Source of the DNA: Planctomicrobium piriforme
GTDB taxonomy: Bacteria > Planctomycetota > Planctomycetia > Planctomycetales > Planctomycetaceae
Direction of reading: 5' to 3'
DNA: 39,789 nucleotides
NCBI GenBank assembly: GCA_945860955.1
Contig: CAMATH010000078.1
Location: 1-39,789 of the forward strand
A program made the translations under genes and the position numbers. How positions within the stretch are numbered: the first letter of the stretch is position 1; each line of letters opens with the position of its first letter. A model generated the notes under the pieces. That model had not been told where the DNA came from, ran no database searches, and saw nothing but the letters and a program-made list of their open reading frames with translations. Below are positions 37,344 through 39,789 of the stretch, one piece after another.

Positions 37344-38654
37344 CTAACCCAGTTCCAACGCCCCATCTCCGCAGAAGTCGGGGTTGCCGAATTTCGTCAG
37401 GTTGTGGCCAAACGACCGGGCGATCGACATCAGCAGGCGATTGTGCGGCACCCGGGGAAACTTGAGCGATCGCCCCATCTGAAAGTCGAGACCGTTCCCC
37501 ACCAGCACAAACGGAATGTTGTCTAGCGTGTGACTGTTCCCCTGGCCCAGTTCATTCGTCCAGACGATGGTCGTATTGTCGAGCAGACTCCCCGTTCCAC
37601 CCGGCTCAGGGGTCGCGGCGAGTTTCTCGCACAAGTAGGCCAGTTCGCCGCAGAACCAGTGGTTGATTTTGGTCAACTTGGCCTGTGCCTCGTCGTTCGA
37701 ATCGGGTTCGTGCGAGAGATCGTGGTGTCCCTCTTCGACCCCCAGCCACTTCATCTTCGCCTGCCCCACCGAGTTGGTGTATTGAAGTGTCGCGACGCGG
37801 GTGAAGTCCGCCGCGAAACTGTTGACCATCAGGTCAATTTGCATTCGGCTGATTTTGGGAAGGTTCTCGTTCTGGGTTTTGATTCCCTTTTCGAGTTCCG
37901 GCACGGCGTGGCCAACGTCCTGCGACTCGCGCAGTTCTTTTTCCATTTCACGCACAAACGTGGCGTGTTCATCGAGCAGCCTGCGATCTTCGACGCTGAT
38001 ATTTTCGCCTATCCGGGTCAGTTCGTCGCGGACATCGTCCAGCACGCTGACGAGCAATTCGCGATTCTTCACCTGCCCGTACAACCGCTGAAACATCTGA
38101 TACGGGTCATCAATCGGGGCGATCGGGCGGTTCGCTCCCGAGTAGACCATGCGGGTCCAGGTGTCGGCCCGTTCCGGCACCAGCACGCCAAACTCGAGCG
38201 AGCCGAACCGGGTGCGGGTTGCTTCGTCGCGTTGCAGGAAATTGCGGATTTCCTGGTCGATGGAAATTCCGCTGGCCCAGCCGGCGGGTGTGTCGGAACC
38301 GCCCTGAACATTCCCGGGGAACAATTCGGCCCCGGTGAGCAGACAGCCAATCCCGCGCATGTGGCTGTCTCCATCACCCCGAACCCGATCGCAAACGCCG
38401 TTGAGGATCAGCGTGCGGTTTTTGAACGGTTCGAGAGGCTGCAGGCTTTCCTTGAGCGTGAAGTCGGCTCCCTGCTCGTCGGGCCAGAAGGTTTTCGGGA
38501 CGATGCCATTGGGGCTGAACAGCACGACCAGCCGTTGTTTTCGGCGGGTTTGGTTCGCGAACGCCAGACTTGGCAGATTGGCGACAAACGGCGCGACGGC
38601 GGCACTGAGGCCCAGATCTCGCAGGAAATCGCGACGTGTGCTGGAACGGGACAT
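37344..38654 (-). CDS. DUF1552 protein with Tat-type leader
   Basis: A 436-residue DUF1552 protein. The leader [20 protein letters not shown] is a Tat-type signal. Family landmarks include [60 protein letters not shown] and [18 protein letters not shown]1552 proteins often occur beside DUF1592/cytochrome proteins in planctomycetes, but none is here. ATG 38654 opens the leader directly, and the upstream in-frame extension crosses the REP region. Function unknown; the fold is probably phosphatase-like, as in DUF1501. Confidence 0.9.
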
Positions 38655-38897
38655 CGATTCGGTTCCGGAAAATGAGGCGTCGACGTGGGGGGGACGCGGC
38701 AGGCAACTTTGATCGCTGTATTCTGATTTGAGTTGGCCTTGAAGTCGAGTCCGGTCGGGATTTCGCGTTCCAAAAAGGAATATCAATCTCGGCGATCGGT
38801 GGTACAGGCGGTACGGCAGGAGGGGCGGAATCGGACGGCCCTCATTGCGCATCATCGCCGGCCTGGCCCAAAAGTCCACATCGTTGTCCCCTCCCCA

Positions 38898-38997
38898 GGC
38901 GAGCCGGCCCGCGTTAGCCGCCGGGTTTTCGACCCGCGTCGGCACACTGCGCGCCAGCCACGCCAAAAACCGGTCGGCTGACGCCGGACCGCTCGCG
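38898..38997. repeat. REPIN: two REP copies in inverted orientation
   Basis: Copy A (38898-38930, forward) starts GGCGAGCCGGCCCGCGTTAG and ends CCGGGTTTT. Copy B (38965-38997) is its reverse complement with several changes (CGGTCGGCTGACGCCGGACC). A 34-base spacer separates them. The pair lies between the DUF1552 leader and the transposase stop codon at 39002-39004, a typical position for a REPIN next to its RAYT gene. Confidence 0.75.
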
Positions 38998-39001
38998 ACA
39001 A

Positions 39002-39637
39002 CTACTTTGCCGGCACCGGTGGTGCGTGTTCGCCAGCAATCCAGATGATGAGTGGATTCGATTGGTTTCTGATGTACTCGACCGCGGCTGCCAATGCTTG
39101 ATCGTTCGGTAGTTTTCGCGTGGATCCTCGGGAGGTCCACCAGGTTTCCGACGCTGGCTTACCCCATTCTCGATTCAGAGCGCGGCTGCCATAGGCTTTG
39201 AAGTCCCCCAGGACATCATTGGGATCGGGATCGCCTGACACCCCCACAACGATGTGTATATGACTTCTGAGGATGCCGACGGCTCGCAAATTCCAGTTGC
39301 GATACCGGGCCGTCTCGTGCAATTGCACGTGCAAGACTTCGGCTTGAGGAATCGTTAGAAAAATGGGGGGGCACTTGAGGGTTCGAGCCAGATGCGACTG
39401 GAGCGCCGGTCGGTCGCGGTCGTACTCTGTGTGGGGCTGATTTTGAATGGATCGGACGCGGTCTGCAGTGTTGCTGCTCCCTGAGCGGAATACCCGGCGG
39501 CTGACGCCGGCCGGCTCGCCAGACGTTGGTTCGCGGCCTGTTTAGTCGTTCCAGGCCCAACCCACGACGCCGCGCGAGTCGCCTGGAAGCCATGTGCCGT
39601 AGGTCGTTGACGTCAGCAACCAATGACGCTGGTCCAT
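39002..39637 (-). pseudogene. REP-associated Y1 (HUH) transposase, RAYT-like, interrupted
   Basis: Read from ATG 39637 (GAGAGGG eight bases upstream), the protein begins MDQRHWLLTSTTYGTWLPGD, a typical N-terminus of planctomycete Y1 transposases. The frame then hits TAA at 39542-39544. The same frame continues to 39002 with the HUH motif SHIHIVVGV (His codons at 39260-39262 and 39254-39256), [32 protein letters not shown] and the probable catalytic Tyr in VEYIRNQ (codon at 39074-39076). About 30 extra residues after the stop include a REP copy (39492-39520). No good restart codon precedes the HUH motif; a TTG at 39334 is the only candidate. It is therefore a pseudogene unless the stop is read through. 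Confidence 0.82.
39492..39520 (-). repeat. REP copy C inside the transposase gene
   Basis: On the minus strand it reads GGCGAGCCGGCCGGCGTCAG followed by CCGCCGGGT, the cleanest copy of the REP in the window. It lies within the transposase frame, 22 bases past the in-frame stop, and preserves the frame. Confidence 0.75.
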
Positions 39638-39775
39638 TATGGCACCCTCTCATGGAAACGAATCGACCGGATCCTGCTGGATACATATGTACCGCATTCG
39701 CAACGACGCTTCAAGCGAAAATCGCACGTACACTCCGCGCTTGATCACAGTCGACATCGTTCGCGACCCCCCACA

Positions 39776-39789
39776 GGCGAGCCGGCCGG
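39776..39789 (+). repeat. REP copy D, cut off by the window end
   Basis: GGCGAGCCGGCCGG matches the head of the REP. The bases before it (ACATCGTT at 39754, then a C-run) also match those before copy A (ACATCGTT at 38878), so the repeat unit is longer than the REP core. The rest lies outside the window. Confidence 0.65.

Follow-up and report, generated by a model that had tools for sequence, protein, structure and literature searches.

A REP sequence carried in frame inside a RAYT-like transposase gene of two related planctomycetes

The RAYT-like transposase gene of a Planctomicrobium piriforme contig carries, within its reading frame, a copy of the REP sequence that flanks it, and the same REP occupies the same codons of the orthologous gene in a second species of the genus, where the frame is open. 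The window, by which is meant the whole stretch of 39,789 nt that was analysed, is the entire contig C78 of a draft assembly (8.4 Mb in 282 contigs) and ends at 39789. In-frame REPs resembling those of the respective flanks recur in the same protein loop in four further genes, which group apart from the window pair. In all likelihood the in-gene REP is an older, translated insert that is tolerated in a variable loop, and the stop codon now interrupting the window copy is a later and unrelated change that has probably turned it into a young pseudogene.

The transposase frame runs on the minus strand from an ATG at 39637 to a stop at 39004-39002 and begins MDQRHWLLTSTTYGTWLPGDSRG. The N-terminal part, recognised by translation and by alignment with homologues, comprises codons 1-31 (39545..39637, minus strand) and is followed by an in-frame TAA at codon 32 (39542..39544, minus strand). 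The remainder (39002..39541, minus strand) stays in the same frame as the N-terminus and contains, by translation, alignment and Pfam, the SHIH (HUH), WW and Tyr motifs and the Y1_Tnp domain. The arrangement initially read from the letters, namely an N-terminus and a HUH/Tyr core in one frame with a TAA at 39544-39542 and a REP inside the gene, was thus recovered in the translation of 39637-39002 and in a REP scan. Beyond the TAA, no other lesion was found in the translated frame. The ORF list gives, after the stop, an ORF of 110 aa with the usual start TTG 39334 (39002..39334, minus strand), in which the beginning of the domain is missing; a restart there would therefore yield an incomplete core. 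Y1_Tnp (PF01797) scores 24.9 bits in the window part after the stop and 26.3 in the sister protein (cut-off 23), and in an alignment of 14 rows H131 is invariant while H133 and the downstream Tyr, Y193, are nearly so. As in RAYT/TnpAREP systems, the gene is flanked by REPs found elsewhere in the genome; the NCBIfam model REP_Tyr_transpos gives 34.7-34.8 bits, below its curated cut-off of 80, and the gene is therefore named RAYT-like. A sequence search of the PDB returned four matches, two of which are IS200-type transposases (2f4f, 2ec2) and two designed repeat proteins that look spurious, and a structure model (mean pLDDT 37.9) was too poor to show loop exposure.

The in-gene REP (39488..39520, minus strand), translated as GEPAGVSRRVF, lies in a loop (39446..39556, minus strand) to which alignment and profile assign 27 extra residues with uncertain exact ends. 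Downstream of the gene stands a REPIN (38898..38996) made up of a REP at 38898-38930 (plus strand) and a diverged REP at about 38960-38996 (minus strand), and upstream the start of a REP (39776..39789, plus strand) is seen in the sequence before the contig end cuts it. An 18-mer of the REP core occurs at three places in the window (with 0, 2 and 3 mismatches) against 0.14 expected, a number of matches reached in 0 of 100 shuffles. With ≤3 mismatches allowed, 32 places in the genome match a REP 27-mer and the backward control gives none; a degenerate REP pattern, too strict for the purpose, matched two places. The proposal that the gene contains a copy of its own flanking REP is correct. No second close copy of the window RAYT was found in the source genome, another RAYT-like gene of which (on C67) is 46% identical, has an open frame of 204 aa and is flanked by a different REPIN family. 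The genome of the second species (G002) holds 34 REP matches, and for 18 of the 30 REP places compared in the source genome ≥200 nt of flank can be matched at a REP place in G002. Many REPs are therefore common to both genomes.

In the 14-row alignment the stretch from the RG-V to the N-P motif is longer by 27 residues in the window protein and by 32 in the sister than in the 12 other rows, of which one (L041) breaks off within the loop at the end of its contig. Measured against the profile, the window insert likewise amounts to 27 residues, close to the 30 or so extra codons estimated beforehand, and it does hold the REP. A class-wide search gave a match in 116 of 397 genomes, and 109 matches were tabulated for excess length, a table that omits partial matches save one as well as matches weaker than E 2.9e-46. 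Among the matches listed, those exceeding the profile by more than 20 residues are G271:C636 (38), the sister (32) and the window (27), and G150:C5 exceeds it by 16. A sample of the phylum yielded matches at E ≤ 1e-35 in 5 of 392 genomes, all of the window's class.

The nearest relative found lies on contig C363 of G002 (L040), a genome of the same genus as the window, and the same sister gene is present on JAPLOC010000363.1, from a metagenome-assembled Planctomycetota genome of Lac Pavin (L069). The other same-genus genomes searched, G001 (83% complete) and G003, gave no match to the RAYT gene or to the REP pattern. Downstream of the stop, window and sister share 92% identity, and the sister frame is open over 220 aa, with the REP in the same codons, in frame and without a stop. 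The 147 core codons differ by 8 nonsynonymous and 16 synonymous changes and no frameshift (NG86 dN 0.031, dS 0.164), and at a dN/dS of 0.19 the core is seen to be under purifying selection in this pair; the ratio, coming from a single sister gene, combines the two branches and gives no date for the stop. Presumably selection has acted on the REP-containing protein during most of the period after the two lineages parted. Divergence is higher in the extra segment than in the core (dN 0.126, dS 0.50), and its dS, higher than the 0.16 of the core, makes gene conversion or a second arrival of a REP at the same spot possible. Within the insert, window and sister differ at 1 of the 27 positions of the REP 27-mer, this sole change being in the hairpin loop, as against 18 of 78 positions in the remainder (Fisher p = 0.023); the same contrast made with a 33-nt REP (3/33 vs 16/72) is not significant (p = 0.17), so that it hinges on the REP length chosen and is weak evidence that the REP itself is kept. 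An in-gene stretch of 48 nt in the sister matches the upstream REPIN at 88%, which indicates that part of the spacer arrived with the REP, and the sister RAYT has a 113-nt repeat on both sides.

The TAA is placed upstream of the in-gene REP, seven codons away and within the same extra segment. In the other 119 rows this alignment column is free of stops, and among the rows compared the TAA is confined to the window copy. Whether a homologue would share both the extra segment and the stop was a point on which the sequence-only reading hung; the sister has the segment and lacks the stop. Nonsynonymous differences between window and sister adjoin the stop, and others fall at residues that could be polarised, using amino acids of distant relatives only. 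At F24V the window residue occurs in 0 and the sister residue in 71 of the 119 rows, at L101I in 1 and 20, and at P139S in 9 and 56, which suggests that these changes arose on the window side at residues conserved elsewhere, while for V132I, A167P and K121N the side of the change is not assignable from these rows. Small in number, the window-side changes would fit a loss of constraint, or decay. Being private to the window copy, the TAA may reflect young decay, a strain variant or an assembly error; assuming that it is a true base, the window copy would most likely be a young pseudogene.

In-gene copies of the flanking repeat were flagged by self-BLAST in 6 of 121 distinct genes, and four of these are REPs (window, G002, G271 and G150); on visual inspection the repeats of the other two, L128 and L154, do not qualify as REPs. 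Two more cases, G339 and G318, both of the same genus as G150, were found by directed search and, as partial matches, are absent from the excess-length table. The extra segment of G271 lies in the same loop and has two copies of the flanking repeat GAGCCGACGACGCCAGTCGTCGGGT, and the same loop of G150 has one copy of GAGCCGCCGACGCCAGTCGGCGGGT; upstream, the 5' portion of the gene is duplicated in tandem together with this REP. By eye, G339 contains one inverted REP and two direct REP-like copies, and G318 one inverted REP and three direct REP-like copies, partly decayed in both; a scan at ≤4 mismatches recovers two in-gene copies in each, and both frames are open, with loops of 70 and 88 residues. 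Throughout these four genomes the in-gene REPs are in frame and resemble the gene's own flanking REPs. At ≤2 mismatches the REP pattern matches 24 places in G150, 10 in G271, 18 in G318 and 5 in G339 (controls 0 each), and since the contig that carries the RAYT accounts for 6 of the 10 matches in G271 and 4 of the 5 in G339, the case for wide dispersal is weak in these two genomes. In a tree of 123 rows, made by a quick method with no bootstrap and with 45 of 120 inner branches weak, the six genes with in-gene REPs need two changes of the trait, one for window and sister and one for the other four, which sit in an 11-row set (SH-aLRT 98) that does not contain the window pair. As the remaining seven rows of this set were unflagged, two origins are the most economical interpretation, though a single origin followed by losses may also apply. 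The search needs a readable frame and therefore favours in-frame inserts. Two neighbouring observations concern the gene ends in these genomes: the 5' tandem duplication in G150:C5 (L224/L132), REP included, is in frame and forms one open frame of 307 aa, and in G271 (L131, 1067-1251) the C-terminus of the RAYT runs on through an array of REP pieces (RADDAIRADDA...), a repeat-coded tail.

According to the preferred explanation, the locus would be the REPtron of a planctomycete Y1 (HUH) transposase of RAYT-like type, whose own REP, with part of the REPIN spacer, would have entered the loop between the first strand motif, TTYGTWLPGD-RG-V, and the N-P-T-Y-D motif before the split of the two species. 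The neighbouring REPIN is the probable source, and the insertion may have been made by the transposase itself or by exchange with the flanking REPINs. Being in frame, the REP would have been translated and tolerated without function, as the length of this loop varies anyway. The same loop would have taken in REPs separately in another clade, where copies may have multiplied by in-frame tandem duplication, and the window copy would later have gained an unrelated stop upstream of its REP.

That the sister keeps the REP in an unbroken gene indicates that the REP did not break the gene. Self-inactivation, as originally suggested, with a REP insertion disrupting the gene and the stop forming part of the inserted piece, is extremely improbable: stop and REP do share one extra segment, seven codons apart, but the stop is upstream of the REP and absent from the sister, the pair is under purifying selection and four further REP-bearing relatives have open frames. 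The companion proposal of a working, self-regulated gene, expressed through read-through or restart, with a REP hairpin that acts on the mRNA or binds the gene's own protein, is also very unlikely. It could draw on the core dN/dS of 0.19, on a REP core little changed between the two species and on the in-gene REP folding as RNA in 4 of 4 cases tried; yet it is for the other clade alone that the fold is clearly better than in shuffled sequences (z of -3.6 for G271 and -3.8 for the duplicated part of G150), not for the window (-0.7) or the sister (-0.9), a restart at TTG 39334 loses the start of the domain, 0 of 119 rows have a stop at that column, and the window gene has likely changed at the conserved F24, L101 and P139. 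The main alternative to a young pseudogene is that the stop arose through an error of sequencing or assembly or through mixed strains, the window gene being whole like the sister's, which we consider unlikely and which is compatible with the REP part of the preferred explanation. Such an error would suit a draft assembly, a contig that ends within this REPtron and a frame with no other lesion, but it does not account for the nonsynonymous differences beside the stop and at conserved window sites, and in-frame stops are not rare in the family, being present in at least seven RAYT-like genes, the window gene included, among the matches listed.

There is likewise a small probability that the in-gene REP is itself selected, either for keeping RAYT and REP matched or as a recombination handle with the flanking REPINs. 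Such a role agrees with the finding that two clades have REPs in this loop, in each gene similar to its flanking ones, and with the lower divergence of the REP core relative to the remaining insert. Against this, in-gene REPs are rare (6 of the 123 in the tree), the recurrence is explained by a loop that tolerates inserts and lies next to flanks rich in REPs, the direct copies of G318 have decayed, and the quietness of the REP depends on the length assigned to it. It is quite doubtful that the pre-HUH loop is a preferred home, into which the enzyme repeatedly feeds its own REP and in which translated copies are kept and multiplied; the copies would then link the protein, the mRNA hairpin or REPIN recombination to whichever REP family is current.

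Repeats in the flanks are the rule for this RAYT-like group, a repeat of ≥18 nt being common to both flanks in 99 of 117 genes as against 2 of 117 with mismatched loci. Genic REPs were surveyed at 30 of the 32 REP places of the source genome and 30 of the 34 of G002, and REP-overlapping ORFs of ≥150 aa were scanned with Pfam (15 in the source genome, the window's contig excepted, and 2 in G002). None of these 17 other long ORFs has a Pfam domain across the REP, a test that is partial, above all for G002. KdpC and DUF1501 are the two REP-overlapping ORFs with a domain, which begins well after the REP in both, so that the REP probably stands before the true start. Next to the RAYT, a DUF1552 gene (Pfam HXXSHH; 37344..38654, minus strand) has an ortholog in G002, and DUF1552 together with the REPIN is 93% identical over 1590 nt between the window and a G002 contig. 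The DUF1552 frame is open upstream through the REPIN into the RAYT (37344-39140), and gene callers may therefore add a false N-terminal extension. The G002 assembly holds forms of the locus with and without the RAYT: at about 1501-1620 of L079 (G002:C798), DUF1552 and a single REPIN are followed by a 143-nt flank and no RAYT, and this flank (96%) adjoins the upstream REPIN of the RAYT in G002:C363. These forms are expected from recombination between directly repeated REPINs, or from a strain mixture, and as the far flank of the sister RAYT differs from that of the window, rearrangement is also possible. At about 1385-1593 of L134 (G002:C85) a REPIN is followed by short decayed pieces of the 3' part of the same RAYT, which seem to be the remnant of a second, defunct copy in G002. 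In L043 (G025:C380) the RAYT frame, a 572-aa ORF, is open into a class II tRNA-synthetase-like domain (Pfam tRNA-synt_2), which represents a fusion or the mere absence of a stop.

In-frame REPs in RAYT genes are known, and what differs here is the RAYT group and the insertion site. According to the passages of PMC6006769 on the RAYT classes, REPs in frame inside tnpAREP are unique to subclass 2.4, where they lie as a rule between the HuH and Tyr motifs, and some members of subclass 2.8 also carry an in-gene REP; class 3 TnpAY1 of Planctomycetes is described in these passages with no mention of in-gene REPs. The premise that REPs are normally extragenic holds in general, with a reported exception in subclass 2.4. 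The sister and the genes of four other genomes share with that subclass a REP inside the RAYT gene itself, in a variable region and with the frame kept, but the REP here precedes HuH, in a Planctomycetia Y1 group with Y-x3-Q, and the motif reads YIRNQ in place of YIxNNP. In described features, which is how the two were compared, the window gene is closest to TnpAY1 class 3, with which it has in common its occurrence in Planctomycetes, atypical flanking repeats and, by eye against the published text, the W[TA] motif (WWT) and an extended conserved N-terminal region (WLLT...TYGTWLPGD-RG). It differs from the class 3 of those passages in its Tyr motif, which is Y-x3-Q in window and sister (other rows are mixed) instead of Y-x4-Q, and in its hairpin, the 5' side of the REP stem reading, by eye, GGCGAG without a CnGA foot. 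Intragenic REPs are reported from many genes of other bacteria in the sections of PMC3733652 concerned with them, and the GTAG/CGTC REPs treated there, Rickettsia palindromic elements included, resemble the present case as palindromic repeats translated in frame; they occur in many unrelated genes, whereas here, among the ORFs tested, the RAYT gene is the only one. As in the E. coli and Pseudomonas REPtrons and REPINs outlined in portions of PMC8266576 and PMC3116915, inverted REP pairs flank the RAYT and like REPs are found elsewhere, but copies are few (32 at ≤3 mismatches), the stem has GGCGAG rather than GTAG, and a REP lies in the gene. No report of in-gene REPs in planctomycete RAYTs was found in the open literature searched, supplements being outside its scope.

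The recurrence in one loop raises the interest of the in-gene REP. It bears on the open questions of REP movement and of RAYT action on the RAYT gene itself, and the natural forms with 0, 1, 2 or more in-loop REPs are ready protein pairs for tests of self-targeting and of an effect of the REP segment on activity. For annotators, REP-derived peptides such as GEPAGVSRRV and RAADASRRV are real parts of some proteins. If the loop should prove to be a preferred home of the REP, the transposase would be encoded by a gene that contains the enzyme's own target and co-evolves with it.
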